In this document: piece by piece, positions 1 to 27,313 of the stretch
Layout of the letters: each line of letters starts with the position of its first letter
Numbering within the stretch: position 1 is the stretch's first letter
Origin: a virus
DNA: 27,608 nucleotides
Virus record (IMG/VR): IMGVR_UViG_3300010354_000489
Span: 1-27,608 of that record
Reading direction: 5' to 3' (one strand)
The notes under the pieces: generated by a model
The model's input: the letters and a program-made list of their open reading frames with translations, nothing else
Told to the model about the DNA's origin: nothing
The model's database searches: none
Made by a program: the position numbers and the translations under genes

Positions 1-22
1 CAATTATTTATAGGACATTTTG

Positions 23-6500: not shown

Positions 6501-6534
6501 AATTTCCGCTATTCTTCGTCCTTCTAGAACCTAA
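3508..6534 (+). CDS. 5: gp5-like baseplate hub spike with lysozyme-like and CHAP-like domains
   Basis: A 1008-aa central spike protein. Residues 1-110 are the gp5 N-terminal OB fold (FQWWVGVVEDRNDPERVGRCRVRIFG; DLPWAIPVYS). Residues about 160-320 resemble a T4-type lysozyme (GH24): YYIGYNH (181-187) matches YYTIGIGH, and LTASQARILVEIDVRIAI plus WDSL match the T4 ITKDEAEKLFNQDVDAAV and YDSL segments, but the catalytic Glu, Asp and Thr are not recognisable. Around 430-460, ESGHSFEMDDTPGVERVHL is the usual entry to the triple-stranded beta-helix, which runs to about 655 and is rich in V/I-x-x-x repeats. Residues about 870-1008 resemble a CHAP/TIGR02594-type peptidoglycan hydrolase: TPWSMAFVNYGLKQNGY, PGDVVLWANDHANF and FVGGSQ. 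The usual Cys is Ser901, while His954 is kept. The role is membrane or wall puncture during tail contraction. The ATG at 3508 overlaps the hub stop (ATGA) and is preferred over a GTG at 3487. Confidence 0.85.
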   Translation: MKLRKNFIGQDGFQWWVGVVEDRNDPERVGRCRVRIFGIHTDDLSLIPTEDLPWAIPVYSVNNNDTFSAPKEGEYVVGFFLDGSFCQAPAILGVLPGFNKQSPPDARGFGDVRNPSQIRSSPKKPVAIDYPESRTGNPSVVLSGNIINDGIGIVDIVLDQVKLHVPLSLTAKQSLVNPSQYYIGYNHRFTEQELKQGFVSLSHVSHARHAHQSIEGVQISGLNGSGTELTASQARILVEIDVRIAIDRAKNSIGAGTWDSLNIAQQSGLALHAYHLGTETDFEKSGVRSAITSGDLVKATQLIGAELVRSESGKYLKSEDTLSHIAANLFKSIPKSLLAAQAEVAKQTPSNAAGAGIGIRVLESDLSSDTDAKSIKYPAPEDLNKSSINDFATLEEKTLIQQFKEKSSVIAIGANGESWSEPSPAYSAEYPYNKARETESGHSFEMDDTPGVERVHLAHRAGSFIEFYPSGTKIEKIVKNNYRIVMSDDHLYVAGRVNVVLESNANIKVVGDCYLQVENNLETKVSGSMNVSISEAFNLKANTLNFDIANTSTIAANNQYITIKDKLLINSNTSNISTSNTLTLHSNANQYFISIGTTHHKSNGIMIESSQNASINATGTGYFTSSGLLHLNGSSARITGSTVDVYGTLNAGSTNMTATGADSNGDSHVLTVAGSGATSALIPEPSQNSNTAISAKQVNDMYYVDQPYIDIVELGTRKNKIITDISNSYNIDLDTAGLLVHEILNAAAGDTKRKRSHLGDPVKKGTPTNAQKYLESDRIVKLRDSINEENNASLRKYYANFEAYPSGFTNVKRFIAPAPKSGSDIIFDDIVGESLIIINDTADIKAWLDKQLMLAANGYWRETGIEVSRRIQPSNPNIVDLWSNLGFTREYWTLSDQTPWSMAFVNYGLKQNGYRYVQTPNPKDLEIRLEDYRFTRVSAAEAKPGDVVLWANDHANFVYENNNGILSFVGGSQPPAAVENINDGRIGDVSIVGDGGSSISAILRPSRT

Positions 6535-6556
6535 ATAGCGATTAGAGGAACCATAA

Positions 6557-6949
6557 ATGGCAAGAACTGCACGTGTATATTCAGATTTAGATCTAAATTT
6601 CACAAAACATCCAGTTACAAAGGACGTTGCGTTAAAGACTAACGAATATGCAGTCATCGGCGCAGTTAGAAATATCGTTATGACTAACTTTGGAGAGAGA
6701 AGATTTACTCCAAGGTTTGGGGGAGATGTATTGTCTCAGCTCTTCGAACCACTCGATGATATGACTGCATTAAATATAAAACAAGAAATTATGACTTGCA
6801 TCTCTAACTATGAGCCGAGAGTTAAACTTGACGTCGTCGATGTAGTTCCGAATTTTTCAGCTGATGGATTTGACGTAACAATTCGTTTTTATCTACTCAA
6901 TTCAATAAGACCAATTACAACAGCATTGTTTCTGCAAAGGTTAAGATAA
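6557..6949 (+). CDS. 25: gp25 baseplate wedge protein
   Basis: 130-aa homolog of T4 gp25 (132 aa; GPW/gp25 family), the wedge subunit that contacts the first sheath ring and starts sheath assembly. Family features seen: NEYAVIGAVRNIVMTNFGER followed by FTPRFGGDVLSQLFEPLDD (the conserved R-x-x-x-P-x-[FY]-G-x-x-[IL] core, about residues 48-75), then an alpha helix (ALNIKQEIMTCISNYEPRV) and the strand pattern VDVVPNFSADGFDVTIRFYL. AGAGGAA at 6544-6550 is a strong Shine-Dalgarno 6 bases before the ATG. It is followed by gp6 after 1 base, and the pair is a conserved T4-type unit: gp25 and gp6 with gp7 form the inner wedge bundle. Confidence 0.95.
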   Translation: MARTARVYSDLDLNFTKHPVTKDVALKTNEYAVIGAVRNIVMTNFGERRFTPRFGGDVLSQLFEPLDDMTALNIKQEIMTCISNYEPRVKLDVVDVVPNFSADGFDVTIRFYLLNSIRPITTALFLQRLR

Positions 6950-6950
6950 A

Positions 6951-9026
6951 ATGGCAAATGTAGAAAGTAAACTCGTAATATCTGAACCAGACTTCTTTGC
7001 GATTAAGACAAGTCTAAAGAACTTTTTAAGATCACAAACAACATTTGCAGACTACGATTTCGAAGGATCAACTTTATCGCAGTTGATAGATTTACTTGCA
7101 TATAATACGCATTATCTATCATTCTATATGAACATGGTAGCGAATGAGTCATTTTTAGATACAGCTGCATTAAGAGATTCAGTTGTTTCTCATGCAAAGA
7201 TGCTCGGATATACTCCAAGTTCAGTTAGAAGCGCTCGCGCATCTATAGATCTAACCTTCACTTTGGCTAACAATCCAAGTATTTCTTCATTGACCTCATT
7301 AACACTTCCGAAGTTTACCAAATTTGCTTCATCAGCAATTGATGGGGTGAACTATACCTTCGTCACTTTGGACGAGATGACAGTCTCAAAGTCTGCAAAT
7401 GCATTCACGTTTAGCGATGTAAGCATCTATGAGGGTACTCCAGTTTCTCAGGTATTTGTTTATAACGAACAATTAAATCCACTCCAAGAATTTAAATTAT
7501 TAGATAAGAATATTGATACATCAACATTAGAAGTTATTGTTCAAACCTCATCATTAGATTTAACACAGCAAACCTTTACACTTGCTACAGACGCAACAGA
7601 AGTAACACAAACAAGTAAGGTTTATTTCCTAGATGAAATTACAAATTCGAATTACAAAATTTATTTCGGCGATGACATACTAGGTCAAAAACTTTCTGAT
7701 GGTAATATGGTTGTAATTAGTTATGTTGTAAGCAATGGAGCAGCTGCAAATAAAGCAACATCTTTTAAATTATTAGATCCTGTTGCTGGACTAACACAAG
7801 GAACAGTTACTATTGAACAAGTTGCCTCTGGTGGTAGCGGAATTGAATCAATAGAAACAATTAAAGCACTTGCACCAAAAACATTTGCTAGCAGAAATCG
7901 TGCAGTAACCAAAAATGATTATATTGCACTTATTCAAGATAGATACCCAGCATTTGAAGCAGTAAATGTTTGGGGTGGAGAAGAAAACATTCCACCTGTA
8001 TATGGTAAGGTGTTTATTTCAGCAAAACCTTCTGCTGGATACCAAATTTCAAGAACAGAAAAAGAATATATTATTAGTACAGTCGTTGATCCAATTAGTA
8101 TTCTGACAGTAACGCCAGAATTTGTTGATCCTGATTTTAATTATTTAAATTTAAATATTAAGGCAACATATGATCCTACTGCCACATCATTAACACCTGG
8201 TGAAATTTCAACGTTGATCAGAAATAAAGTTAACAATTATGCTAACACATATCTTGATCAATTTAATTCTTTCTTTAAAATTTCAAGATTAATGCATGAA
8301 GTTGATATGGCGCATCCATCAGTATTGAGCAACAATATTGATGTTAAGATCGAGAAACGATTGATTCCTGTTCTTGGTGTTTCAAGAAATTATGTAATTA
8401 AATTCTATACAGAATTAAAGCGATCAACAGGTCCAGATAGAATTACTTCTAGCCCAGCATATACTGCATACGATAATGAGGGTGTTTTGCGTGAATTCTT
8501 CTTCGAAGAGGTTCCGCTCTCATCAACTGGTATCTCATCAGTTCAAGTTGTTCTTACAGGAGCAAATATCACTTCAACACCTAGACTCGTTGTTGAGGGT
8601 GATGGTGTTGGCGCAAGAGTAAGTGCAGTGGTAACAAATGGAAAGATCACAGCAGTTAATATTGATGACACTGGTTCTGATTATGCAACAGCAGCGATCA
8701 AAGCATACGATGAAGATGACAATCTAATTCCAAATGTGTTATTAAGACCAATCATTGAAAATACAACTGGTAAGTTGAGATCATATTATTTCGATAACAA
8801 TAATATTAAAGTTGTTTACTCTTCTACTGCTGGCGTCATCGATTATATTAATGGTACAATTACACTAACTCAATTTTTACCAATTGATGTCAGAGATACA
8901 TTTAAAACAATTAAGTTTTTTGCGACTCCAAAGAATACATTGTTTAGTTCTGCAAGAAACACAATCATCACATTAGATGTTGATAACCAAGCACAAGTTA
9001 CAATAGATGTACAGAAAGTAAGCTGA
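6951..9026 (+). CDS. 6: gp6 baseplate wedge protein
   Basis: 691-aa homolog of T4 gp6, which forms the dodecameric ring holding the baseplate wedges together. The N-terminal 110 residues are highly typical: FLRSQTTFADYDFEGSTLSQ, LIDLLAYNTHYLSFYMNMVA, then NESFLDTAALRDSVVSHAK and LGYTPSSVRSA. The middle has FASRNRAVTKNDYIALIQDRYP (about residues 310-330) and WGGEEN, the gpJ/gp6 core motif also found in P2-like baseplate proteins. The C-terminal third includes an inserted Gly-rich beta module (about residues 525-590; VVLTGANITSTPRLVVEGDG... IDDTGSDY) that recurs in gp7-, gp8- and later proteins here. ATG follows the gp25 stop by 1 base, so translational coupling is likely. Confidence 0.93.
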   Translation: MANVESKLVISEPDFFAIKTSLKNFLRSQTTFADYDFEGSTLSQLIDLLAYNTHYLSFYMNMVANESFLDTAALRDSVVSHAKMLGYTPSSVRSARASIDLTFTLANNPSISSLTSLTLPKFTKFASSAIDGVNYTFVTLDEMTVSKSANAFTFSDVSIYEGTPVSQVFVYNEQLNPLQEFKLLDKNIDTSTLEVIVQTSSLDLTQQTFTLATDATEVTQTSKVYFLDEITNSNYKIYFGDDILGQKLSDGNMVVISYVVSNGAAANKATSFKLLDPVAGLTQGTVTIEQVASGGSGIESIETIKALAPKTFASRNRAVTKNDYIALIQDRYPAFEAVNVWGGEENIPPVYGKVFISAKPSAGYQISRTEKEYIISTVVDPISILTVTPEFVDPDFNYLNLNIKATYDPTATSLTPGEISTLIRNKVNNYANTYLDQFNSFFKISRLMHEVDMAHPSVLSNNIDVKIEKRLIPVLGVSRNYVIKFYTELKRSTGPDRITSSPAYTAYDNEGVLREFFFEEVPLSSTGISSVQVVLTGANITSTPRLVVEGDGVGARVSAVVTNGKITAVNIDDTGSDYATAAIKAYDEDDNLIPNVLLRPIIENTTGKLRSYYFDNNNIKVVYSSTAGVIDYINGTITLTQFLPIDVRDTFKTIKFFATPKNTLFSSARNTIITLDVDNQAQVTIDVQKVS

Positions 9027-9027
9027 T

Positions 9028-12000
9028 ATGTCAAGTCTGAATAGAATATCAACACTTGTTAATTCTCAATTGCCTGAGTTCATTCGCTCAGACTATCCAG
9101 TATTCGTTGAATTTCTAGAAAAGTATTATGAATTTCTAGAACAGCCTGGAAATCCAACTTATGAGATTAAAACATTCTCAAATAATCATAATATTGATTT
9201 AACACGAGAAAGTTTATTAAAATACTTTCGTGAGAAAATTTTACCATCTTTCCCAGAAGAATCAGAATTAAGCACAGAAAGAATTATTAAGGCATCTCGT
9301 GATTTTTATGCTAAAAAAGGCACGTCTGATTCTTTCAAGTTTTTGTTTCATGTCCTTTATGACAAAGACATAGAAATATTTTTCCCAAAATTAAGAATTC
9401 TAAGAGCATCTGATGGTAAGTGGGTATTGCCGCAAGCATTTAGATTGATTGCTCCAGAAAATTCAACACTTGATTTATCGCTACTTCGTGGAAGAAAGGG
9501 TATCGGTTCTGTTTCAAGATCAACTTGTGTCATTGAACGAGCCTATTACACAAGAGACTTATCTTCAGGGCAGCAAATATATGAAGTATATGTTTCTGGC
9601 GTTACTCGCCCATTCGTCAATGGAGAGGAATTAGAAGTTGATTATGTAAGTGGAACAACCACACTCACCTTTTCGCATACTATTATCGGAAGTCTTTCCA
9701 ATATTAAGATCAATCCGAGAAGAAGAGGCAGAAGATATAAAGTTGGTGATCCAGTTGTTATTAATGGTGGATTAGATCCAGACTTATCAGGCACATCAAA
9801 ACAAAAAGCAATCGCTACAGTTAAAACTGTAACAACCGCAAGTATTGATTCAACAACAATTGTTCGTCGTGGATATGGATTTAGAGTAAACCCCAACTCA
9901 TATATTGATGTTATTACAACGAATCCTCTAACGGGAGAGGCAGACGGAACTGGTGATGGTTCTGCTGCAAATCTAATCGTAACATCTATTGACACAACAT
10001 CAAATATTACAGTTAATCTTGGATTAGATGCTATTATCTATTCAGCAAATTTAACAATCAACAATAATCATTATGATTTGACTAACACTTCTCCAGAGTT
10101 AACATTTAATGCAGCATCATCTGGAAATACACAGACTGCAATAAACATTGCAAACTTCTCAGAAATATCAACAACTAATGATTATTATAATTCATGCATA
10201 ATTAGAATTATATCTGGAACAGGATCTAATGGAAGTGGGTCGAACATTAATGCTGCTGTAATTGCAGATTTTACTGGCGCAAATTCTGTTGTAAATTTAA
10301 ATGCAAACACATCATTGATCGGAACTGTTAATGTTTCTGGTATTGATGTTGTTGGAAACACATCTCATCCAAATGTTACCTTCTTTACAGAGGGCGCAGA
10401 AGGTTTTTACACTTATCTCACGGCAGGAAAAACAATTGAGGTGAATGGTGAAATTCGAACAATCGCAACTGTTACAAATAACTATCATTTGACTGTGACT
10501 TCTGCCTTTACAAATCCTGCAACGAATAAAAAGATAAATGCCAATTCAACACTCACAGTTGCACCTGATGAGACTAGCGTTCTTCAAATTACATCTGGAT
10601 TAGATACATTCTTGTATAGTGCGATGTCATTCGAGCAAATGAATGTAAATCCTATCCTTACAGTAAGAATTGTTTCTGGTGGATCTAACTTTGGATCTGA
10701 ACCACCAGCAACATTGAATGTCGTTTCTCTTTATGAGAGTGACTATTCTTCAGAGGGATTTCAAACACTTAATCCTGGACAAGTTACTAACTATGATCCA
10801 GATGCTGCAACGGTTGTGCTCTCATTCACAGGAGCATCTACACAAAATGATTGGTACAATGGAAGAAGGTTAAAACTTGGAACTCAATTTAGAACCATCA
10901 CAGATTATGATGGTGCAACAAAAACTGCATACCTAAACAGAAAATTTGAAACGGATATAACTTCTGGAAGTATTTTAACCAAGACTTTGAGAATTGATAA
11001 TCGTCCTGGAATTCTTGGAATGGGTATCGTTGCTAACGTTGAAATTTTAAATGGTGGTAGTGGTTATGTTCCAGGAGAAACATTGAATTTCAGCGAATCT
11101 GGAGTTGGTGCAGCTGCAACTGTTGCAACTGTTGGTGGTGGCGGAATCATCACTGGAATATCAATTTCAAATCGCGGAGAAGGTTATCCAAAAGCACCAG
11201 TTATAACGGTCAACTCAGCAGGTGGTTCAGGCGCAAATCTAAAAGCCTATTTGGTTGGTGATGGTGAGGACATAACTGCAACTGCAACAACTCTCGGAGA
11301 AATCATCGATTTCAATCTCTCAAGTCGTGGCGCAGGTTATATTGGCACACCAAATGTTTCGTTAAAGATTTATGATCTAAAATTGTCATCAAATAGCAAT
11401 ACAGTAAATGTCACTGCTATAACTGAGAACGATGTTGTGTATCAGGGAACTGATCTGGCAAATGCAACGTTTAGAGCAACAGTTGATCAGCAGCTCTCAT
11501 CAAATACGATTATTCGTGTGTTTAATTATTCTGGAACACCAAACGTTGCAAACAATCCACTTAGATTGGCTCGAGCAAATTTAAGTGGAGCATTTGTAAA
11601 TGTTCACACAACTGGAATAAATCTTGAATCAACGACAATAAATGGATTCGCGTATCCAAGAACTTATGGAAATGGAAAGGCGAAGGCAAATGCTGAGTTC
11701 TTAAATGGATTGATTCGATATGACGGATTCTATCTAAACACAGATGGATTCCCAAGTTCAGATAAAAGACTTCAAGATAGTGAGAGATATCACAACTTCT
11801 CATATGAACTTGTGTCAGAAGAAAGTTATGATCATTATGCGAAAACTATTCTGGATGTTGCACACCCAGCTGGAACGAAATTATTACCAACTCATGTCAT
11901 CCCAGAAAATTATACCGCAACCTTGCCAAGAATTTTGACGCCTTCTGGAGTTGCTAATTTAAACGTCCACACAATGATCATCGCAACCAATACATTGATT

Positions 12001-13937: not shown

Positions 13938-16900
13938 ATGGCAATAGATTACAATGTAGAACCGTTTTATGACGATTTTGAGGCAGAAAATGGCGCTAAA
14001 GAACAAAACTATATGCGCATTTTGTTCCGTCCTGGTTATGCTGTTCAGGCTCGTGAACTTACTCAAATTCAGAGTATCATTCAAAATCAAATTAAACAAT
14101 TTGGCGATCACATCTTTAAAAATGGATCACCAGTTTATGGCGGTCACATAACTTATGATCTAAATGTTCCTTCTGTAAAATTACAAACAGCATATAACGG
14201 TGTTGACGTTGACCTAGATGATTATGCAAATGGCGTAATCAAAAACGTTGCTGGTACTTCGAAGGTTAGAGCAAGAGTAATTGCGACTGACGAAACTCAA
14301 ACTTATCCAACTCTCATGTTAAAGTATTTGAGAGGAACAAGATTTGCAAACAACGAAGTAATCTCAACTCTATCAGGAACAAGCGAAGCAAAGACACTTG
14401 CTTCTAATGCGATCTCTACTGGCTCTGTTGCAACAATTCAACCTGGAGTGTTCTATGTTGATGGATACTTCATTCAAGTTGAAGAGCAATCAATCGTACT
14501 TGATCCATACTCAAATACAGCCAATGCTAAAATTGGTCTCGAGATTGAAGAAGAAACAGTTGATGAAAGCGCAGATGCCAATTTGTTAGATCCAGCTCAG
14601 GGATCATTTAATTATCAAGCACCTGGTGCACACAGATACCAAGTTCGCCTAAATTTGGCAAAAAGAACACTATCATCTGTTGACGATACAAAGTTCTTTG
14701 AACTTCTTCGTATTGAAAATGGCGTCATTACAAAACAAGTCAAGTATCCAATTTATTCTGAACTTGAAAAAACACTTGCTCGTAGAACATACGATGAATC
14801 TGGCGATTACACAGTAAGCCCATTTAAAATCTCTTTTGCTGCAAATACTGTTAATGATGATTACTTCCATGCAATCATTGAGCCAGGAAAGGCATATGTC
14901 AAAGGATTTGAATACGATGCAATCGGTCCGCAAAAGATAAACATTGAAAAGGCTAGAACAAAACAAACAGCAAATAATTTTGATTTGTCTTTAGAATACG
15001 GCAACTATCTTTATGCAAACTCAGTTGTTGGCTCAGCAAATGGATTTGCAAACACTCTAAGTGTTCCAACGCTTGAATTGCACTGCGTTCCAAAATCAAA
15101 CATTAATACAACAGGAAGCGTTGGTTACAATACAACTTACATGGGATCTGCGAAGTTAAAGCACATTACTCGCAACTCTGGATCAGAATATATTGTTTAT
15201 TTGAGTGATATTCTTCTAAATTCAAATACAGTAACTGTTGCTAACAGCTCAACAAATATTAATACTGTTGTGTTTCCAGTTGCATATTCAAATTTAAGTG
15301 AAGCATATACAAACGTTTCAGTTAGAGTTATTAGCGGTGGTGCAAGTAATGCTGCAGCTGGAGATGTTCGAACAATTGTTCGATACGATGGTCCAACTAG
15401 AACAGCATTTTTAGATAGAAATCTTACTTCTACAATATTGTCGACAAATACTGTTGCATTAGTTTATAGTTCTAAAGATATCGATTCATTGGTTGAAGTT
15501 GTTTCGAATAAAGCAGCATTTAATGTTTCAATGAATGTGTCCAACAATAGTAAAGATACAATCGGTGGAACAATACTATACGATTCAAATAGAAAAACAC
15601 TCGTATTCTCATTACCTGATCCGCAGGTTGATGATGGATCGATCGACGATGCTGATTATGTAACAAATAAGTTCATACAAAATCAGGCTTTCGCTCTTTC
15701 TGGTGGTAACTATACAGCATCAATTACGTTATCTGGAAATGAAACGTTAGATTATGGAACAAACTCTCAGAATCTATCATCAGCAGTTATCAGTCAAAAT
15801 ATTATTCTTGTTGTTCGTTCAGTTGGTACTGCAACTGGTGTAAGTGTTGGTGATATTATTACTCCAGCAAATGTTGCTCGATTGTCTGCAACATCACTCA
15901 CAGTTTATTCTGGATTGAATGGAACATTTAATGGCGATCTTTACGTTCGCGTTAAGATGGATAATTCAGAAGATAGCAATCTAAGAACAAAAACACGAAT
16001 TGGTAACACATCAAATACAACGCTTACATCAACTGCTGCTTATGGACAAGGATCATCAGTAACTGGATGCACTAGTGTGTATATCGATACTGCAGTTGCA
16101 AACGGTCGCGTGTGGTTTACTGATCCAAGCGTGATCAATAAAACGCCTGGTGGAAATACCTCGTTGTTTATTCCTGATGTGTACAAACTTATTCGAGTTT
16201 ACGATTCTGGAAATGCAAGCGTTGCTGTCACAAGCACAAATGCAATTGATATTACACAAAGTTTCTATCTTGACTCTGGACAAACTTCAGAGTATTATGA
16301 TCACTCTAAGATCGTATTGAAACCTGGAAGAAATGCTCCACGTGGTCAAACGGTTGTTCTATTTGAAGCATATCAACATAGTACGACAACTGGATACTTT
16401 AACGTTGATTCATACCCAACAGCACAGTACACAGATGGAGAAATTCCTGTGTTTAAATCTACTGATGGAATGCAATATTCTCTCAGAGACTCTATTGACT
16501 TCAGACCAACAAGAACTGCTGGTACAACAGCAAATACTTACTTTGGTGCAAAAATTCCATTGCCTTATGAGCCAATGGAATTGTCATATCAATATTATAT
16601 ACCAAGAAGAGATAAGATCGTTCTTACTTCTTCAAAAGAATTGAAAGTTATTAATGGTATTCCAAATAAGAATCCAAAATATCCATCTGATCAATCAGAT
16701 GCGATGACATTATTCACAATTGATATTCCTGCTTATACTGCATCACATAAGTACGTTGCAGCAAAAGCATTGGATCATAAACGATATACAATGCGTGATA
16801 TCGGAAAACTTGAACAACGCATTAAGAATGTTGAGTATTATTCTGCATTAAGCATGGCTGAGAAGAAGGCTAAAGATTCAGCAATTCTTTATGAAGATAA

Positions 16901-17834
16901 TGCAACAGAAAAAGAAAAGTATGGTATGGTTGTCGACAACTTCACTGGATTCGATGTTGCTGATACAAAGAGTAGAGATTTTGTTTGCTCTGTCGATGAA
17001 GGCAAATTAAGACCATACACTAAAACAACAAACTTTAATCTTGTTCCAAGTGATCGATCATTTACTGCTCCAGATTATTCAAATATGCCTAAAAAGTGCG
17101 TTTGGACAATTCCACCTGGTGAAAAGATTATTAATAATCAAACAGCTGCAACTAAAAATGTCGCTGTGATTCCATCAGTGCTTTCTGGTAAGTTTGAGGG
17201 AGATGTAAATCTCTTCCCATCAACAGATCATTACTTCTCAGTTGTGATTCCACCTGTGTTGAATTCACCTGAGATTAAGATCCTCCCACCAGAACCACCA
17301 CCACAGTACGTGCCACCACCTGTTCCAATTTGTGTGCTACCAACTCCAATATTACCAGAACCAACGCCACCAGATGTGTATGCACCTGTTGTGAGCCCAG
17401 TGATGCCGCCGATTATTCCACCACCTGCACCACCTGCACCAGTAGTGTTTGATCCGCCAGCACCACCACCATACATTGCACCTCCGCCTCCTGTTGCGGC
17501 ACCACCACCATATCCACAAGTAATACCTGAGGTTCGCCCATTCCCAGATCCAGATCTTATTGGACAACTTTTAGTATTGCCACAACCTCCAGCTCCACCA
17601 GTTGTTCCAGTTCCAGCACCAATCTTTATTCCTGGATATGGAGAGATTACAATTCCAGAAATTGTTCCTCCACCATTGGAAATTATTCCTCCAGATATAA
17701 CTGGTGTTGCGCCAATCGTTTCTGTCATTGACACATGGTATGGTCAGGAATTAAAACAAGGATTTAGTGAAGGCGTCGGTGGCGGTGGAGGAATGAGAGA
17801 TTTTGAATTCGGCGATCGGATGATGCTAAATTAA
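13938..17834 (+). CDS. DUF4815-type virion structural protein with polyproline C-terminus
   Basis: 1298-aa structural protein. The N-terminus (YDDFEAENGAKEQNYMRILF; RPGYAVQARELTQIQSIIQNQI; FGDHIFKNGSPVYGG) is the typical start of the DUF4815 proteins of exo-T4 phages, which sit after gp8 and are thought to be peripheral baseplate or fiber-attachment components (gp9/gp10 positions in T4). The body is beta-rich with Asn/Ser/Thr-rich loops; residues about 920-1060 have a conserved-looking block (SLRDSIDFRPTRTAG; MRDIGKLEQRIKNVEYYSAL; AEKKAKDSAILYED) with a helical segment that may be a coiled coil. Residues about 1116-1258 are a proline-rich tract (roughly 58 Pro in 143 residues), followed by a Gly-rich GEGVGGGGGMRDFEFGDRM tail. 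Shine-Dalgarno AGGA at 13925-13928 overlaps the gp8 stop. The domain call is from memory of the family; the exact morphogenetic role is inferred from position. Confidence 0.75.
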   Translation: MAIDYNVEPFYDDFEAENGAKEQNYMRILFRPGYAVQARELTQIQSIIQNQIKQFGDHIFKNGSPVYGGHITYDLNVPSVKLQTAYNGVDVDLDDYANGVIKNVAGTSKVRARVIATDETQTYPTLMLKYLRGTRFANNEVISTLSGTSEAKTLASNAISTGSVATIQPGVFYVDGYFIQVEEQSIVLDPYSNTANAKIGLEIEEETVDESADANLLDPAQGSFNYQAPGAHRYQVRLNLAKRTLSSVDDTKFFELLRIENGVITKQVKYPIYSELEKTLARRTYDESGDYTVSPFKISFAANTVNDDYFHAIIEPGKAYVKGFEYDAIGPQKINIEKARTKQTANNFDLSLEYGNYLYANSVVGSANGFANTLSVPTLELHCVPKSNINTTGSVGYNTTYMGSAKLKHITRNSGSEYIVYLSDILLNSNTVTVANSSTNINTVVFPVAYSNLSEAYTNVSVRVISGGASNAAAGDVRTIVRYDGPTRTAFLDRNLTSTILSTNTVALVYSSKDIDSLVEVVSNKAAFNVSMNVSNNSKDTIGGTILYDSNRKTLVFSLPDPQVDDGSIDDADYVTNKFIQNQAFALSGGNYTASITLSGNETLDYGTNSQNLSSAVISQNIILVVRSVGTATGVSVGDIITPANVARLSATSLTVYSGLNGTFNGDLYVRVKMDNSEDSNLRTKTRIGNTSNTTLTSTAAYGQGSSVTGCTSVYIDTAVANGRVWFTDPSVINKTPGGNTSLFIPDVYKLIRVYDSGNASVAVTSTNAIDITQSFYLDSGQTSEYYDHSKIVLKPGRNAPRGQTVVLFEAYQHSTTTGYFNVDSYPTAQYTDGEIPVFKSTDGMQYSLRDSIDFRPTRTAGTTANTYFGAKIPLPYEPMELSYQYYIPRRDKIVLTSSKELKVINGIPNKNPKYPSDQSDAMTLFTIDIPAYTASHKYVAAKALDHKRYTMRDIGKLEQRIKNVEYYSALSMAEKKAKDSAILYEDNATEKEKYGMVVDNFTGFDVADTKSRDFVCSVDEGKLRPYTKTTNFNLVPSDRSFTAPDYSNMPKKCVWTIPPGEKIINNQTAATKNVAVIPSVLSGKFEGDVNLFPSTDHYFSVVIPPVLNSPEIKILPPEPPPQYVPPPVPICVLPTPILPEPTPPDVYAPVVSPVMPPIIPPPAPPAPVVFDPPAPPPYIAPPPPVAAPPPYPQVIPEVRPFPDPDLIGQLLVLPQPPAPPVVPVPAPIFIPGYGEITIPEIVPPPLEIIPPDITGVAPIVSVIDTWYGQELKQGFSEGVGGGGGMRDFEFGDRMMLN
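17283..17710 (+). repeat. Polyproline tract in structural protein
   Basis: A coding low-complexity tract of about 143 residues with roughly 58 prolines, many in runs of two to four separated by V, A, I, L or Y (for example IIPPPAPPAPVVFDPPAP). It is expected to form an extended polyproline-II rod. The minus strand reads as a Gly-rich open frame, which is a shadow. Confidence 0.9.
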
Positions 17835-20706: not shown

Positions 20707-20931
20707 ATGTTAGTGAAAGTTAAAGATGCAGAAGGATTGATGAGAGATGTAAATTCACGAGCAATATTGAACGTGAATAAGAATGTCTTATTAAAAGATC
20801 AGATGTATCAAGAACAACTCAAAAAAGAAAAGCATATGGAGGCTTCTATAAATAATCTAAAAGATGAGGTTTCCTCCATAAAAAGCGACATTTCGAAAAT
20901 ACTAGAAATGCTCAGTAATCGAGGCGAATAA
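20707..20931 (+). CDS. Small coiled-coil protein, unknown function
   Basis: 74-aa protein. The first 30 residues (VKDAEGLMRDVNSRAILNVN) look like a short globular or peptide region seen in small exo-T4 proteins at this locus. Residues about 48-70 are a clean coiled coil: hydrophobic residues follow a 3-4 spacing, I-L-V-I-I-I-L, from SINNLKDEVSSIKSDI onwards. It lies between two structural genes, 5 bases after one stop and with its own TAA overlapping the next ATG (TAATG), so it is probably made with them and may be an oligomerisation or adaptor subunit for a fiber. No enzymatic motif is seen. Confidence 0.75.
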   Translation: MLVKVKDAEGLMRDVNSRAILNVNKNVLLKDQMYQEQLKKEKHMEASINNLKDEVSSIKSDISKILEMLSNRGE

Positions 20932-21896
20932 TGGCAAATTCAAATATTTCATATGTTCAATTAGTGAGCACCTTTAATGAGTGGAGAGCAACTACAAACG
21001 ATCTGATCGAAGATCGTAATATTCTTAGAAACGCTCATTATGTAAAGGATAATGGAACATTTACAATACTTGCAAACGTAAGCAATGTAAATCCACTTCT
21101 CACAGTTGGCAATAGTGGAAATGGTAATGTCATTATCGGGAATGTTTTAAATGTCGTTACAGTTAATGCAAATACATTTATTGGAAGAGGCTCTGGAGAA
21201 AACCTAGAATCTCTCATACTTACAGTTTATGCAAAAGCCAATGCGGCAGCAAATACGGTTCGTGTTTCTCAAAACAATGGATCAATACTTTCTGCAAATC
21301 AACTCAACTTTGTAAACACTTCAACAATCACAATCACAGTCAGTGATTCTGGTAATGGAAATGCAAATATATCTTTTGTTGGTAGTGGCGGAATTTCAAA
21401 TGTTGCTGTTCTTGCAAATGGTGCTGGAAGCGTAAATGCAAACGGTCTAAACTTTGTCAACACCTCAACTGTAATCGTATCAACAGGTGCCAGCTCAACA
21501 GCTGGAAATGCAAATATATCCTTTACTGTTAGCGGTTCAGGATTGACATTGAAATCTGTCAATGAATTTTTGCACACAAATACAAATGTTGATTCAGCAA
21601 ATACAGTTGATTTAGCAAATGCAAACTGGTTTGCGATGACACTTACTGGATCATCTGGCAATCGTCAATTTACATTTACGAATGCACCTGCTGCAAATGT
21701 ATTCAGTCATAATATGATCATCATTCAAGATGGATCTGGAGGCAAAACGCCTACTTGGGCGAACACGATTTATTGGGCTGGTGGACAAGTTCCTCCAGCA
21801 ACAACAACTGCAAGCGCCAAAGATATTTGGACGTTCACAACATATGATGGTGGAACAACATATATTGGAACTCTCAGCGTCAAGAATGCGAGCTAA
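20931..21896 (+). CDS. Fiber-like structural protein with internal duplication
   Basis: 321-aa protein typical of fiber or fiber-connector proteins of exo-T4 phages. The N-terminus (YVQLVSTFNEWRATTNDLIE) is an amphipathic helix. Then comes a beta region with Gly/Asn turns (NVNPLLTVGNSGNGNVIIGN), an Ala-rich VYAKANAAANTVRV segment, and two tandem copies of a roughly 50-residue unit, each containing LNFVNTST and ending GNANISF (about 21288-21380 and 21429-21525). The C-terminal 110 residues (ANWFAMTLTGSSGNRQFTFT; MIIIQDGSGGKTPTWANTIY; DIWTFTTYDGGTTYIG) form the beta-jelly-like end often seen in phage tail-fiber ends and particle-surface proteins. It overlaps the previous stop by TAATG. Confidence 0.7.
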   Translation: MANSNISYVQLVSTFNEWRATTNDLIEDRNILRNAHYVKDNGTFTILANVSNVNPLLTVGNSGNGNVIIGNVLNVVTVNANTFIGRGSGENLESLILTVYAKANAAANTVRVSQNNGSILSANQLNFVNTSTITITVSDSGNGNANISFVGSGGISNVAVLANGAGSVNANGLNFVNTSTVIVSTGASSTAGNANISFTVSGSGLTLKSVNEFLHTNTNVDSANTVDLANANWFAMTLTGSSGNRQFTFTNAPAANVFSHNMIIIQDGSGGKTPTWANTIYWAGGQVPPATTTASAKDIWTFTTYDGGTTYIGTLSVKNAS

Positions 21897-21899
21897 TTT

Positions 21900-23705
21900 A
21901 TGCCACGCAGTTTTAGTTTAAATAAAACATGGATTCCTGGTGGTTCCAGAGGAACAACCACATTCAATGCTTCTGGTAATATTAATATTGCCTACGGAAG
22001 AAATAAAACCACAGTCTCGGGACAAGCTGGACCAGGAAATCCAGCAAATTATGGTTACAACGTAACACCAGGAACTAGCAATCCAGCAACATATGGATAT
22101 AATGTAACTCCAGGGAATGTAAACCCGACGGCATATGGATATAATGTGACTCCAGGAACTGGAAATCCACCAACATATGGTTATAATACCAGCGGCGGAA
22201 ACACAAATCCAGCGAATTATGGGTACAACGTAACTCCAGGGACTGGTAATCCACCAAATTATGGTTACAATACTAGTGGTGGAAATACAAACCCACCAAA
22301 TTATGGATACAATGCCAGTGGTGGAAATACAAACCCAGTGAACTATGGCTACAACGTAACTCCAGGCAATGTGAATCCTACTGCATATGGATACAATGTC
22401 ACTCCAGGGAATGTAAACCCAACAGCATATGGATATAATGTAACTCCAGGGAATGTAAACCCAACAGCATATGGATACAATGTCACTCCAGGGAATGTAA
22501 ACCCAACAGCATATGGATATAATGTTACTCCAGGCAATGTGAATCCTACGGCATATGGATATAATGTTACTCCAGGTAACTCAAATCCAGCGAATTATGG
22601 GTACAATGTAACTCCAGGAAACACAAATCCAACTAGTTATGGATATAACTACACGGCAGGATCATATAACGCAAATAATGGACAAGATTTCAACAGAGGA
22701 TTTGATGAGGGTGGATTCGCTGTTGTTTATAGTGATGGAAATCTATACTTTCAAGATGGATATACCAACTTGAATGCTAATGTTCCAGGATCTGGATTTT
22801 CTCCAAACTGCCCACCAGGTCCAGAATATTACTTCGGATATGTTTATGAATTTAGTTTTTATGGATTAATCGGGGTGAACTATTCTTGTTCACCAGGCGG
22901 AGCAACATTAAATCCAGATAGTTATGGGTACAATACAACTCCAGGTAACTCAAATCCAGCGAATTATGGGTACAATGTAACTCCAGGAAACACAAATCCA
23001 GCGAATTACGGATATAATACCAGCGGCGGAAACACAAATCCAGCGAATTATGGATATAATACTAGTGGTGGAAATACAAACCCACCAAATTATGGATACA
23101 ATGCCAGCGGCGGAAATACAAACCCACCAAATTATGGATACAATGCCAGCGGCGGAAACACAAATCCAGCGAACTATGGATACAATGCCAGCGGCGGAAA
23201 CACAAATCCAGCGAACTATGGCTACAACGTAACTCCAGGAAACACAAATCCTACTGCATATGGATACAATGTAACTCCAGGAAACACAAATCCTACTGCA
23301 TATGGATATAATGTGACTCCAGGAACTGGAAATCCAGCAACATATGGATACAATGTTACTCCAGGAAACACAAATCCAACAGCATATGGTTACAATGTTA
23401 CTCCAGGAAACACAAATCCAGCGAATTATGGGTACAATGTAACTCCAGGAACAACAAACCCAACAAGTTATGGGTACAATGTAACTCCAGGAACAACAAA
23501 CCCAACAAGTTATGGGTACAATGTTAGTGGTGGAAATCCTGGCGCACCAACAAACGTTCTTGGTGTTTATTTCCCAGGAGGTGCTGCTGGATCTCCAGCA
23601 CCATATGTCCCAGAAACTGTAACGAATTATTGGGATTATCCTGATAATGCAAACTATCCTGTCACTGTTCCATCAGGCGGTCAAATCGTTATAAAAATTG
23701 AATAA
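21900..23705 (+). CDS. 30-repeat Pro/Gly/Asn/Tyr-rich fiber/adhesin-like protein
   Basis: 601-aa protein not recognised as a named family. It has a 45-residue unique N-terminus (FSLNKTWIPGG and a Thr/Asn-rich strand pair), then 15 tandem 14-residue repeats (residues 46-255), an 81-residue non-repeat island (256-336), another 15 repeats (337-546), and a unique C-terminal 55 residues ending YPVTVPSGGQIVIKIE. The repeat consensus is x-N-P-x-x-Y-G-Y-N-x-[ST]-[PG]-G-[NTS]. The island has Gly/Tyr/Phe-rich sequence and the only two cysteines noticed (NCPPGPEYYFGY and YSCSPGG). There is no signal peptide or membrane segment. Its place directly after fiber-type genes and its composition suggest an extended virion fiber or adhesin; the C-terminal strand may be a capping or attachment element. 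No clear Shine-Dalgarno precedes the ATG, which begins 3 bases after the upstream stop. It lies just before the hydroxylase/glycosyltransferase cassette. Confidence 0.7.
   Translation: MPRSFSLNKTWIPGGSRGTTTFNASGNINIAYGRNKTTVSGQAGPGNPANYGYNVTPGTSNPATYGYNVTPGNVNPTAYGYNVTPGTGNPPTYGYNTSGGNTNPANYGYNVTPGTGNPPNYGYNTSGGNTNPPNYGYNASGGNTNPVNYGYNVTPGNVNPTAYGYNVTPGNVNPTAYGYNVTPGNVNPTAYGYNVTPGNVNPTAYGYNVTPGNVNPTAYGYNVTPGNSNPANYGYNVTPGNTNPTSYGYNYTAGSYNANNGQDFNRGFDEGGFAVVYSDGNLYFQDGYTNLNANVPGSGFSPNCPPGPEYYFGYVYEFSFYGLIGVNYSCSPGGATLNPDSYGYNTTPGNSNPANYGYNVTPGNTNPANYGYNTSGGNTNPANYGYNTSGGNTNPPNYGYNASGGNTNPPNYGYNASGGNTNPANYGYNASGGNTNPANYGYNVTPGNTNPTAYGYNVTPGNTNPTAYGYNVTPGTGNPATYGYNVTPGNTNPTAYGYNVTPGNTNPANYGYNVTPGTTNPTSYGYNVTPGTTNPTSYGYNVSGGNPGAPTNVLGVYFPGGAAGSPAPYVPETVTNYWDYPDNANYPVTVPSGGQIVIKIE
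22035..22664 (+). repeat. 42-bp coding repeat array, block 1 (15 units)
   Basis: Fifteen in-frame 42-bp units, each encoding 14 residues with the invariant YGYN core. Units 9-13 encode an identical NPTAYGYNVTPGN-type repeat and differ only at synonymous positions. The unit ends are TPG (11 units), SGG (3) or TAG (1). Confidence 0.97.
22569..22631 (+). repeat. 63-bp exact direct repeat, left copy
   Basis: This 63-base stretch is identical to 22938-23000. It covers parts of repeat units at the end of block 1; the offset between copies is 369 bp, a multiple of three. Confidence 0.95.
22908..23537 (+). repeat. 42-bp coding repeat array, block 2 (15 units)
   Basis: Fifteen further in-frame 42-bp units with the same consensus, starting LNPDSYGYN and ending YGYNVSGGN. 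The unit ends are TPG (9 units) or SGG (6). Both blocks have the same number of units and length (630 bp). Confidence 0.97.
22938..23000 (+). repeat. 63-bp exact direct repeat, right copy
   Basis: Identical partner of 22569-22631, located at the beginning of block 2. Together the two copies bracket the non-repeat island, and recombination between them would remove 123 codons in frame. Confidence 0.95.
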
Positions 23706-23707
23706 GT

Positions 23708-23736
23708 TTGATTTTTTTAAATTTACATGTTATACT
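23708..23736 (+). promoter_or_regulatory. Putative sigma70 promoter with extended -10
   Basis: TTGATT (23708-23713) and TATACT (23731-23736) are separated by 17 bases. The -10 is preceded by TG plus one base (TGTTATACT), which makes an extended -10. It lies in one of the few real gaps of the window (23706-23757) and about 20 bases before the 2OG oxygenase start, whose ribosome binding site GGAG is at 23747-23750. Confidence 0.55.
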
Positions 23737-23757
23737 ATGTAAAAATGGAGTTATATT

Positions 23758-24345
23758 ATGCCAAGTTTTCCCAAATATAATCGTCAATTGAGTCAATATT
23801 GTGTTGTTGAAAGATATTTCAGCGATGAGGAAGTTGATAAAATTATAGATTTAGAAGAATTACAACAATTCAGTGAAGGAAAGGTGGGGTCTGGTCAAGC
23901 AAAGTTAGATAAAAGAGCAAGAGACAGTGAGATCTCTTGGCTCTTTCCATCAAATGATTCTGGTTGGGTCTTCAATAAATTTAATTCTTTGGTTGGAAAA
24001 GTGAACTATGATCATTTTATGTTAGACATTGATGGATTTGACAATTTTCAGTATACAAAATACAAAAATAAACAGCATTATAATTGGCATTATGATTTGG
24101 ATTTAAATTATGCAACATGGGAAAGAAAAATTAGTGCAACAGTGTTATTAACTGATCCTGAAAAGTATGATGGTGGTGAATTTGAAATTGTGCCCAATGG
24201 TAATATTGAAGATCCAGTATCATTTAAACCAACAAAAGGATCTGTCATCTTTTTCGCTTCTTGGATGCCGCATAGAGTTGCTCCTGTAAAATCTGGAGTT
24301 CGTAAATCTCTTGTTGCTTGGATTATGGGAAAAAGACCATGTTAA
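23758..24345 (+). CDS. 2OG-Fe(II) oxygenase, prolyl-4-hydroxylase-like
   Basis: 195-aa soluble dioxygenase of the P4H/2OG-Fe(II) superfamily. Iron ligands are visible: H111 and D113 in NWHYDLD, and distal H172 in WMPHRVAPV. The 2-oxoglutarate-binding basic residue is R182 in GVRKSLVAWI. The double-stranded beta-helix segments between them (ISATVLLTDPEKYDGGEFEI; KPTKGSVIFFASW) are typical, including the GGEFEI element. Such enzymes couple 2OG decarboxylation to hydroxylation of proline or other residues. Related enzymes are common in exo-T4 phages, usually without a known target. It is the first gene of a four-gene run behind a putative sigma70 promoter; its stop overlaps the next gene. Substrate is unknown; the neighbouring PF11397-type glycosyltransferase and Pro-rich virion proteins make proline hydroxylation worth testing. 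Confidence 0.92.
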   Translation: MPSFPKYNRQLSQYCVVERYFSDEEVDKIIDLEELQQFSEGKVGSGQAKLDKRARDSEISWLFPSNDSGWVFNKFNSLVGKVNYDHFMLDIDGFDNFQYTKYKNKQHYNWHYDLDLNYATWERKISATVLLTDPEKYDGGEFEIVPNGNIEDPVSFKPTKGSVIFFASWMPHRVAPVKSGVRKSLVAWIMGKRPC

Positions 24346-25070
24346 AAAATCTTTTTAAAATTTTTGGGAATGACGTCATCGAGTTCTATTGCCATCCAAA
24401 TTATCAGGATGTGATACCAGAACCAAAGCCTGCAATTAAATATCTTCCAGAGTGGTTCAGAATATTACCACCAGAAAATAAAGAAAGAAAAGATGATTTG
24501 TGGAATATTCCACAGATGACTGCAAAAAAATGTTTTCCACTAATAGACGCGATGTCTCTTGGATTTGTGATTCCTCTTTGTGGGGATTTGCAAGTCACAG
24601 TCGATGATGATATGACTCAAATTAAAGTTCACAATCCACCTGGAATGAAACTTGCAGAATTTCATGATGTTTCTCAAGTTGGTGGAAAAACTGCACCAGG
24701 ATTTCCAATGAATCCTGTTAAATTTATAAATCACTGGGTAATTAAAACTGCTCCAGGTTGGTCAACTCTATTCATTCCACCAATTAATCATTTTGATGCT
24801 CCATTTACATGTTTGGGTGGGTTAGTAGATACAGATCGATACCCAAAAGAAGTAAATTTCCCAGCGATTTGGAATAGACCTGGCTTTGAGGGTGTGCTTG
24901 TGTCAGGAACACCATTGGTCACAGCCATTCCAATTAAACGAAATTCTTTTAATAAAAAACCCAAAATTAAAAAGATGACGAAAGAAGAGTTTACTAAAAT
25001 AGAAGTGATTGCAAAACAACAAAGAAGTCGTTCTCATGTTTATACTCATGAATTGAGAGTTAAAAAATGA
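24339..25070 (+). CDS. Conserved phage protein, unknown function (DUF6065-like), copy 1
   Basis: 243-aa protein from an ATG at 24339 (MLKNLFKIFG), which overlaps the oxygenase stop by 7 bases; an upstream TTG is less likely. It resembles a family of exo-T4 phage proteins (DUF6065-like, from memory). Visible features: an opening YLPEWFRILPPEN, then FPLIDAMSLGFVIPLCGDLQV, an INHWVIKTAPGWSTLFIPPI patch, and a C-terminal VSGTPLVTAIPIKR followed by a basic tail. Alternating strands and turns suggest a cupin-like or other beta barrel, but no metal-binding triad is convincingly conserved with the second copy. It is a diverged paralog of the next gene (shared pattern G-[FY]-[VI]-[IM]-P, [SI]-[TA]-L-[FL]-[IL]-P, SG-x-PL-x-x-x-IPI). 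Function is not known; position suggests participation in the same modification pathway. Confidence 0.7.
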   Translation: MLKNLFKIFGNDVIEFYCHPNYQDVIPEPKPAIKYLPEWFRILPPENKERKDDLWNIPQMTAKKCFPLIDAMSLGFVIPLCGDLQVTVDDDMTQIKVHNPPGMKLAEFHDVSQVGGKTAPGFPMNPVKFINHWVIKTAPGWSTLFIPPINHFDAPFTCLGGLVDTDRYPKEVNFPAIWNRPGFEGVLVSGTPLVTAIPIKRNSFNKKPKIKKMTKEEFTKIEVIAKQQRSRSHVYTHELRVKK

Positions 25071-25894
25071 ACTTATTTAAATTTTTTAAACGAGAAAATA
25101 GTTTCCAGAAAGAGTCAGAATCATTTGATCTTGAGAAAGAAATCAATGATGCATCAAATTCTTCAGTTATCGAAGGTATAAAAAGAAATCAAATTGAATT
25201 TGTAGATTCTTCTAAATTAGTTTTTTCGTCTTTACCAATTTCACTTGCTAAAGACATAGATGTTAATTGCAGAAAAAAAATTGAAGAATCTGGTGGAAAA
25301 TTCACATTTCCAATTTGTCCTGGAATGTTTGATTATTCTAAGTTGGGTTATATTATGCCTGCTTGGACAGATATTCATTTTAAAGCAAATAAAGCAGGTG
25401 TAGTTGCATTTTCTGGTGGAGGAAAGAAAAAAACAAATTTTATTCAACCAGTGAGAATGAATCCAGAACTAGTCACTGGATTATTCGATCTTCAAGATGG
25501 AATTCCATTATCTCCATATAATCTTGGATCTCCCTGGAAGATTTTTAGTTATGATAAAGATATCTCTGCACTTCTTTTGCCAGCATGGTATCACAGTTCA
25601 GTAGAATTTCTAGAAAATTTTTATGTTTATCCAGGAATAGTAGATTATAGCACATTCAATGTATGTAATGTTATTCTAGCACCAAGAAGAAAGATGGAAT
25701 ATACAATCAAGTCTGGAGAGCCTCTTCTACACATCATTCCAATTTATAATAAAAATATTTCTTGTGGATATGGACCACCAACCATTGAGCAAGAAAGTCT
25801 GATAAATTATGATCCTGTGTTCCATAGAAATCAATACTACAGGAAAAATCATTCAAGGAAAAAGACGTTCAACCTTGAAGAAACTTCAAAATGA
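25067..25894 (+). CDS. Conserved phage protein, unknown function (DUF6065-like), copy 2
   Basis: 275-aa paralog of the preceding protein, joined to it by an ATGA overlap. Corresponding blocks: FPICPGMFDYSKLGYIMPAW (against FPLIDAMSLGFVIPLC), DISALLLPAWYHSSVEF (against WSTLFIPPINHF), and IKSGEPLLHIIPIY (against VSGTPLVTAIPI). The N-terminal 40 residues are charged and probably helical (FFKRENSFQKESESFDLEK), and the C-terminus is basic (YYRKNHSRKKTF). The two copies differ widely in sequence, so the duplication is old or they came from separate transfers. No catalytic motif is recognised. Confidence 0.68.
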   Translation: MNLFKFFKRENSFQKESESFDLEKEINDASNSSVIEGIKRNQIEFVDSSKLVFSSLPISLAKDIDVNCRKKIEESGGKFTFPICPGMFDYSKLGYIMPAWTDIHFKANKAGVVAFSGGGKKKTNFIQPVRMNPELVTGLFDLQDGIPLSPYNLGSPWKIFSYDKDISALLLPAWYHSSVEFLENFYVYPGIVDYSTFNVCNVILAPRRKMEYTIKSGEPLLHIIPIYNKNISCGYGPPTIEQESLINYDPVFHRNQYYRKNHSRKKTFNLEETSK

Positions 25895-26829
25895 AGATTT
25901 TTGTAAGCATCGCATCATACCGAGATCCTCTTTTACCATATACCATCGCGAGTCTATTTGATCGAAAAAGTCAGATGACAGACGTTATCTGTGGAGTTTT
26001 CGAGCAAAATGAACTTGAAAATAGTCTCATAACATTGTATCCTGATATATGCGCTCTTCCGAATGTGCGATATAAAAGAATTGATCCACAATATTCTGAG
26101 GGTGTGGGTTGGGCTAGGCATATTAATAGTCTGCAGATGGATGATGAAGACTTCTATTATCAAATCGATTCTCATATAGTCTTTGATGATTGTTGGGATC
26201 GACAGCTGATTAATGATTATAAGGAAGCTGTCAATTTACAAGGATCGAATAAAGTTATAATCTCATCAAATTGTAAGAATTATAGACTTGTAGAAGGTAA
26301 GATCATGCTGGACGAGGACAGGCATTATGCGACCTCTGTCAAGTATTTTCAATTTGACGAGAATCTTTTTTTATCAGCTCATGGAGATTGGGTTGATCCG
26401 ACTCCTGTTGTAACTCCATCAATTCATATTTTTGCGGGAAATATGTTTACTCATGCAGACTGGGTGAGTAATGTTGGAATCAACCCTTATATGTTTTTTC
26501 ACGGAGAGGAGCAGGTTCTAACAATGTCTTCTTTCGCTGCAGGATATAGAATTTTTCATGGAAAGCAGATTCCATCATATCATTATAGGTTTGCTGAGAA
26601 TCACACGAGCAAACAAACATATGAACAAATTGTCTCGAATGATATAATTAACGCGAGAAAGAGTCGATCAAATGCAGAATTCAAAAGATTTATTCGGAAT
26701 TTAGATGACAAAGTCTTAGAGGAGTATAGACAATACTCTGGGGTTGATTATATAAATAGAAAACTAGAGAATCGCGCCATAACTAGAACTGTTCAACCTT
26801 CCATTGAAAATGATTGGGAAATACCCTAA
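25891..26829 (+). CDS. Glycosyltransferase, Skp1 GlcNAc-transferase type (PF11397-like)
   Basis: 312-aa GT-A-type glycosyltransferase. It opens with MKIFVSIASYRDPLLPYTI, the start typical of PF11397 enzymes (GlcNAc, including Dictyostelium Gnt1). Further family hallmarks: GVGWARHI (71-78); the divalent-metal/nucleotide-sugar site QIDSHIVFDDCWD with D93, H95 and D103; FHGEEQ (203-208) with the acceptor-side acidic pair E206/E207; and SYHYR (229-233) near the end. Family members transfer GlcNAc from UDP-GlcNAc, in the characterised case to hydroxyproline of Skp1. It overlaps the previous gene by ATGA, and the cassette's first gene is a prolyl-hydroxylase-like oxygenase. No membrane segment, so it should act in the cytoplasm during virion assembly. 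The donor and acceptor here are inferred, not shown. Confidence 0.85.
   Translation: MKIFVSIASYRDPLLPYTIASLFDRKSQMTDVICGVFEQNELENSLITLYPDICALPNVRYKRIDPQYSEGVGWARHINSLQMDDEDFYYQIDSHIVFDDCWDRQLINDYKEAVNLQGSNKVIISSNCKNYRLVEGKIMLDEDRHYATSVKYFQFDENLFLSAHGDWVDPTPVVTPSIHIFAGNMFTHADWVSNVGINPYMFFHGEEQVLTMSSFAAGYRIFHGKQIPSYHYRFAENHTSKQTYEQIVSNDIINARKSRSNAEFKRFIRNLDDKVLEEYRQYSGVDYINRKLENRAITRTVQPSIENDWEIP
26751..26758 (+). promoter_or_regulatory. T4 late-type TATAAATA motif inside glycosyltransferase gene
   Basis: Exact match to the T4 late promoter -10 consensus, within the 3' end of the glycosyltransferase gene and 216 bases after the DSH active-site region's final codons begin to thin out. It may be chance in AT-rich DNA, but a second exact copy lies exactly 90 bases downstream. 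Confidence 0.3.
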
Positions 26830-26974: not shown

Positions 26975-27313
26975 ATGCCGACTCCATATGCAGAACTTAC
27001 AGTCGATCAGGGAACAACCTTTGAGACTACTATAGACCTCGTGGGAGATGATGGAGCCGCTATCAATATCGCTGGCTACACTTTTCTCGGTCAAATTCGT
27101 AAATCCTACTATTCTTCCAACGTAACTGCGAATCTATCCATCAGCACAGTAAATGTCGCTGGCGGAAACATCATGTTGTCGATGAATTCTTCAACAACAA
27201 CGAATATTAGAGCTGGACGTTACCTGTATGACGTTAAAATGGTAGATACAGCCAACGTTGTAACACGTGTGGTTGAGGGTGTCCTAACCGTAACGCCACA
27301 GGTCTCCAGATAA
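26975..27313 (+). CDS. Small beta-sandwich-like structural protein
   Basis: 112-aa protein of a type common in exo-T4 phages next to fiber genes. Pattern: AELTVDQGTTFETTIDLVGD, INIAGYTFLGQIRKSYYSS, a Gly turn, MLSMNSSTTTNIRAGRYLYD and a closing VVEGVLTVTP. Such proteins resemble the N-terminal domain of phage baseplate-upper/fiber attachment proteins (BppU-like), with an Ig-like beta sandwich. Function as a fiber or baseplate accessory is inferred. It follows the late-promoter gap and has a clear AAGAGG ribosome binding site. Its TAA overlaps the following ATG (TAATG), so it is co-translated with the next fiber-like gene. Confidence 0.6.
   Translation: MPTPYAELTVDQGTTFETTIDLVGDDGAAINIAGYTFLGQIRKSYYSSNVTANLSISTVNVAGGNIMLSMNSSTTTNIRAGRYLYDVKMVDTANVVTRVVEGVLTVTPQVSR

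Follow-up and report, generated by a model that had tools for sequence, protein, structure and literature searches.

The window analysed in the current study is a whole virus record of 27.6 kb from IMG/VR (IMGVR_UViG_3300010354_000489), and the element of interest is a run of five genes at positions 21900-26829, encoding a repeat protein, an oxygenase, two proteins termed DUFA and DUFB, and a glycosyltransferase (GT). PHROG matches across the window are those of a T4-like phage tail region (tail tube cap, wedge subunits and hub/lysozyme, then fibres), and the run is flanked by a tail-fibre gene and by a gene resembling those for L-shaped-fibre assembly. The five genes probably form a cassette in which the oxygenase, DUFA, DUFB and GT act on the tail-fibre adhesin behind which they are encoded. 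The features, all on the plus strand, are:

21900..23705, +, putative repeat adhesin of 601 aa, proposed substrate of the cassette (repeats, conserved terminal domains, oxygenase adjacent in related loci)
22036..22648, +, first array of 42-bp units (14 aa, YGYN...TPGN), 14.6 copies by TRF
22910..23524, +, second array of 42-bp units, 14.6 copies by TRF
23758..24345, +, P4H/PHD-like 2-oxoglutarate (2OG)-Fe(II) oxygenase (Pfam, PHROG, invariant residues, folds matched by an AlphaFold model)
24339..25070, +, DUFA, a DUF6065 protein (PF19541, phrog_7084, dUTPase-like beta-clip fold of the model)
25067..25894, +, DUFB, a DUFA paralogue (phrog_7084, E=5e-17; profile comparison with DUFA, 96% probability)
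25891..26829, +, PF11397/GT60-like glycosyltransferase (Pfam, E=1e-32; invariant DSH and EE motifs)
20931..21896, +, tail-fibre protein directly 5' of the adhesin, marking the tail-fibre slot (PHROG tail fiber protein, E=1e-11)
26975..27313, +, L-shaped tail fibre assembly-like protein at the far edge of the cassette (phrog_3304, E=2e-20)

The repeat protein consists of an N-terminal domain (21900-22049), the YGYN/TPG repeats and a C-terminal domain (23523-23702), and both terminal domains are conserved in relatives. An earlier note on this DNA had reported 20 Thr-Pro-Gly (TPG) sites in it, directly 5' of the enzymes, and exactly this number was found, together with 30 YGYN and 27 Pro-Gly (PG); the TPG count lies about 14 times over that of the shuffled repeat region (mean 1.4, maximum 7). 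The overlapping gene run described in the same note is real, in that the oxygenase, DUFA, DUFB and GT genes overlap by 4-7 bases if DUFA begins at the ATG at 24339, the start that its relatives make likely (there is also an in-frame TTG, at 24318). The note had, however, overlooked DUFA and DUFB, which are equally conserved.

Enzymes of the gene run

The oxygenase matched the Pfam family 2OG-FeII_Oxy_3 (E=6e-18), and the residues named in the earlier note, H111, D113, H172 and R182, were invariant in 14 aligned relatives, corresponding to the HxD...H iron triad and the basic residue that binds 2OG; the assignment as a P4H-like enzyme was thus borne out. The top folds for its AlphaFold model (predicted local distance difference test score, pLDDT, 90) were protein prolyl hydroxylases: PPHD (Z 21.4, root mean square deviation (rmsd) 2.7, 179 residues aligned), PHD2 (20.6) and the chlorovirus PBCV-1 enzyme vCPH (19.4), with an algal P4H also in this group (Z 21.4 to 19). 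PKHD-type proteins (18.8) and Dictyostelium PhyA (6t8m, 17.9) ranked below them. The best single-sequence match in the PDB was again vCPH (5c5t, E=1e-8). Curated cut-offs for the PKHD type (PRK05467) were not reached (64.6 bits against 143, and 28.9-39.8 against 180-399). Collagen-type P4Hs use a catalytic Lys for 2OG, whereas Arg182 is invariant in the relatives of the window enzyme; this Arg is taken to bind 2OG as in PHD-type enzymes (compare R383 of PHD2). The cassette enzymes formed one clade (support 100/99) when 74 oxygenases were placed in a tree. The nearest oxygenases of isolated phages were about 35-39% identical, and the family, PHROG 61, is common in marine cyanophages (350 records).

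DUFA matched PF19541 (DUF6065; E=2e-8, 34.6 bits against a cut-off of 26.6) and phrog_7084 (E=4e-48), and its model (pLDDT 80) adopted the beta-clip fold of dUTPases (Z 11.1, rmsd 3.1, 120 residues aligned, 12% identity). A true dUTPase was nevertheless rejected, as the fold fits and the family sequence profile does not: there was no PF00692 match in the window, and comparison with dUTPase and dCTP deaminase profiles gave probabilities of 0.2-2%. DUFA homologues without other cassette genes nearby were found in haloarchaeal viruses and a few cyanophages. In many haloarchaeal tailed viruses a solitary DUF6065 gene (about 34% identity, annotated as a hypothetical protein) lies near baseplate genes, as in Halorubrum phage HF2 (L221, 5911-6795). 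No paper on DUF6065 was found in the open-access literature searched.

The GT was recognised by PF11397 with 114.4 bits against a gathering cut-off of 21, and D93-S94-H95, E206-E207 and H231 were invariant, in agreement with the DSH, GEE and HYR motifs noted earlier. PF11397 is the family of Gnt1. A sequence search found no solved relative, and the only match among GenBank phage isolates was in XacN1 (21%). In one locus (L345:11503-13074) the GT is part of a fusion protein whose C-terminal segment has a methyltransferase-like motif (DIGAGSGNYG), possibly a further tailoring step.

Sulfotransferase genes were also found inside the cassette, mostly where the GT is absent:

L239:8576-9196, L162:6685-7389 and L204:6682-7371, in-cassette sulfotransferases (Pfam Sulfotransfer_2)
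L337:9665-10366 and L348:9385-10017, in-cassette sulfotransferases recognised by similarity

Linkage in related phage loci

A search of IMG/VR with the oxygenase returned 61 loci (44-70% identity), all on contigs of uncultivated, T4-like aquatic viruses, and in essentially all with sufficient contig the order was repeat protein, oxygenase, DUFA, DUFB and GT. The same linkage was obtained with the GT, DUFA or the N-terminal domain of the repeat protein as anchor. For the last of these the collection was searched with the N-terminal profile, the C-terminal one having no sufficiently conserved stretch, and no adhesin without an oxygenase was found where the downstream sequence sufficed. Two repeat proteins occur in some phages, with a separate oxygenase behind each, one beside the GT and the other beside DUFA-DUFB (adhesin-oxygenase-GT-adhesin-oxygenase-DUFA-DUFB). 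After removal of redundancy, and with 2.5 kb required on each side, 33 DUFA loci remained. The oxygenase was present in all 33, and a YN/XPG adhesin upstream as well as DUFB in 29/29 loci of the window-type architecture. The GT was found in 24 of the 33 loci and a sulfotransferase, counted with a model built from Sulfotransfer_2 members, in six, and the two tended to exclude each other (p=0.034). Co-occurrence, the check that the earlier note had itself put forward, is thus near-absolute from each of the four anchors. In isolated phages of GenBank, the terminal domains of the repeat protein and DUFB were not found, and none had the full system.

The C-terminal domain of the tail-fibre protein 5' of the cassette is also found ahead of the repeat protein in related loci, where the repeat protein occupies the tail-fibre slot, and of 41 non-redundant loci 22 have a homologue of the assembly-like gene 3' of the cassette. 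By gp6 the closest isolates, at about 40%, are Methylophilales phage Melnitz and Pelagibacter phages HTVC008M and Mosig. The sole genome-contig match, a 4.4-kb contig in a Chitinophagaceae metagenome-assembled genome, is likely a phage contig, and therefore no host is claimed. Beside the tail genes of Mosig (L228, 991-14404) lies a cluster annotated as nitroreductase, MoaA-like protein, carbamoyltransferase, aminotransferase and methyltransferase, perhaps another surface-modification island. The tail tube cap protein of the window (20-200) has an N-terminal DVIGN/DVLGN-type repeat that resembles an added segment.

A wider oxygenase search revealed a second architecture (type II), in which DUFA-oxygenase pairs without DUFB or GT neighbour a long Gly-rich protein. 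Two of these neighbours matched Pfam Collagen (E=4e-25 and 4e-21), one of them also PHROG tail fiber proteins. The type II oxygenases, often but not always accompanied by DUFA, sit in a clade separate from that of the cassette enzymes, and 14 of 17 in this clade lie within 2.2 kb of a Gly-rich open reading frame (28% Gly or more, a threshold picked after the data had been seen), versus 4/25 in other non-cassette clades (p=3e-5). Pro before Gly is the classic P4H context, and in six of ten type II adhesins measured 74-88% of the prolines are followed by Gly; these adhesins are almost without YN. Besides a full cassette, some phages, namely L022 and its relatives L254-L262, encode another DUFA-oxygenase pair on the opposite strand (L022:13651-14963, minus strand); it is divergent and lies next to a collagen-like adhesin. 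In a further locus (L271), a PrmA-like methyltransferase gene lies 3' of the collagen-like adhesin (5984-6619) and further 2OG oxygenase-like genes just 3' of the DUFA-oxygenase pair (8531-10922).

Proposed substrate and modified residue

In the proposed explanation, the phage would make the long-repeat tail-fibre adhesin (21900-23705), and the four proteins encoded directly 3' would act on it before or during assembly. The oxygenase, together with DUFA, would hydroxylate residues of the repeats, most likely proline; DUFA, the constant partner, may confer specificity or be an enzyme in its own right. These two may represent an older core acting on proline-containing adhesin repeats, with DUFB and the PF11397 enzyme as later additions in the window-type branch. 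The GT would then attach a sugar, probably N-acetylhexosamine, to the hydroxyl thus introduced or directly to a Thr or Tyr side chain of the repeats, and in other phages the sulfotransferase would substitute for it. The likely effect would be a fibre tip that is stiffened or shielded, or whose binding is changed. Maturation may further be modular, a form of the proposal that we put forward only tentatively: the oxygenase with DUF6065 as obligate partner would add hydroxyls to the adhesin, possibly on a residue other than proline, and exchangeable GT60-like enzymes, sulfotransferases and GT-methyltransferase fusions would supply lineage-specific decorations.

Several observations weigh against this explanation, or against proline as its target. 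The enzymes are tied to the adhesin by adjacency only, which is no proof that the neighbour is the substrate, and in other parts of the tree most related oxygenases lack an adhesin of this kind beside them. Although the structure search placed prolyl hydroxylases first, sequence profiles put the oxygenase as near to the PKHD type as to P4H, and because the profiles rank the two so closely, specificity for proline is likely rather than established. X-Pro-Gly, which the earlier note had regarded as the target, is not conserved in the YN-type adhesins, many of which contain few PG although the cassette is present, and proline makes up only 4-6% of the L081/L204 and L082/L340 adhesins; proline as the modified residue is uncertain for these reasons. 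The acceptor of the GT or sulfotransferase may be hydroxyproline (Hyp), Thr, Tyr or Asn. As a second target the earlier note had pointed to a polyproline virion protein further upstream. The product of 13938-17834 does have a proline-rich tail, with 63 Pro among its last 230 residues, but among relatives, all with the cassette, the number falls from 48 (L005/L006) and 33 (L010) to 11 (L009); it is thus uncoupled from the cassette and was rejected as a target. N-glycosylation sequons were rejected as well, N-x-S/T being depleted in the adhesins (median 0.46 of expectation).

The chemistry that the earlier note had favoured is a narrower form of the proposed explanation, in which the TPG prolines are 4-hydroxylated and the PF11397 enzyme adds N-acetylglucosamine (GlcNAc) to Hyp as in the Skp1 pathway. 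The fold matches to PHD2, PPHD and PhyA, the PHD-type Arg182, the membership of the GT in the Gnt1 family and the excess of TPG in the window adhesin all agree with it. We nevertheless regard it as doubtful, since PG is scarce (1-8 per protein) in over half of the GT-bearing loci and its density is lower in GT-bearing than in GT-less adhesins (0.018 versus 0.076, p=0.001; n=24 and 5, loci not phylogenetically independent), which argues against a GT acting on Hyp in X-Pro-Gly. In the same comparison YN density was higher in GT-bearing adhesins (0.055 versus 0.029, p=0.0025), and [YF]N was the most constant feature of the repeats (median 2.9-fold enriched in 65 non-redundant repeat proteins). 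Both findings would suit an oxygenase and GT acting on the [Tyr/Phe]-Asn core, for example on its Asn or Tyr. This appears improbable, given that the best folds are prolyl hydroxylases, that YN may be merely structural and that the oxygenase also accompanies adhesins with little YN, namely those of type II and that of L337, which has two YN in 358 aa and plentiful X-Pro-Gly. In the L337/L338 adhesins generally, X-Pro-Gly is abundant, YN is nearly absent and a sulfotransferase stands in place of the GT. A strict tie between GT and YN arrays was rejected, as L243 and L244 have YN and no GT, though the density correlation remains.

Trypanosome GT60 enzymes add GlcNAc to Thr. With this precedent, the Thr in every repeat TPG of the window and the absence of the GT from loci that keep the oxygenase and DUFA, the GT might modify Thr directly and independently of the oxygenase; [ST]P is, however, depleted across related adhesins (median 0.77 of expectation), and we judge this unlikely. 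It seems highly improbable that the oxygenase, like Pseudomonas PPHD, has a host target such as EF-Tu and stands beside the adhesin incidentally: its top fold match is indeed PPHD in complex with EF-Tu, yet linkage to repeat adhesins over two architectures and divergent phages would then be unexpected. Hence, from the proposal that the phage hydroxylates and glycosylates its own fibre protein, a dedicated adhesin-modifying cassette is well supported, whereas the specific Hyp-GlcNAc chemistry is not.

Comparison with known systems

The binding properties of phage fibres are usually taken to be set by sequence and nothing else. With a conserved cassette for the chemical finishing of a tail adhesin, host recognition would gain a further layer, and, if maturation is modular, adsorption would depend on a post-translational surface unreadable from the adhesin gene alone. 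The proposal also offers a testable role for DUF6065 and for some marine-phage 2OG oxygenases lacking assigned substrates. No paper on a phage fibre hydroxylase/GT/sulfotransferase system was found in the open-access literature searched.

The type II loci, with Gly-rich repeat adhesins encoded among the tail-fibre genes, recall the tail-tip adhesins of the T4-like gp38 and S16 type (e.g. PMC12892980). The window adhesin differs from gp38 in having YN/TPG instead of Gly-rich repeats. We know of no modification enzymes beside gp38. PBCV-1 vCPH is a virus-encoded P4H and in this resembles the P4H-like window enzyme, although its virus infects a eukaryotic alga. To our knowledge, PBCV-1 has no DUF6065/GT cassette of the window kind. 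Hydroxyproline in viral proteins has been reported (Eriksson 1999, as cited in PMC9301287). Phage oxygenases of PHROG 61 with EGLN-like folds belong to the same broad family as the window oxygenase, and the accessible text of the paper concerned (PMC12774648) describes no linkage to an adhesin, DUF6065 or a GT. Published accounts describe EGLN-like oxygenases as common among marine phages, and the use that viruses make of prolyl hydroxylase as cryptic (PMC12774648, PMC9301287).

The Skp1 pathway of Dictyostelium and Toxoplasma (PhyA, then Gnt1; PMC9485057), on which the earlier note had modelled the locus, shares with the cassette a PHD-type oxygenase and a PF11397-type GlcNAc-transferase. Both enzyme types are indeed present in the window, but DUFA, DUFB and the alternative sulfotransferase have no counterpart in that pathway, whose target is a eukaryotic cytosolic protein modified at a single residue (Pro143) and not a repeat adhesin. 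No cassette protein matched Skp1 in Pfam; the partner here is the tail adhesin. The mimivirus collagen enzymes such as the lysyl hydroxylase/glycosyltransferase L230 (PMC5802723, PMC9546862) provide a viral parallel, with hydroxyl groups and sugars added to a repeat protein of the virus itself, although they act on lysine rather than proline, belong to other GT families and come from a giant virus. The cassette is therefore new in its setting and parts and familiar in its logic, because hydroxylation followed by glycosylation is known for both Skp1 and mimivirus collagen (PMC9485057, PMC9546862); if the proposal holds, it would be a phage counterpart of collagen and Skp1 maturation.

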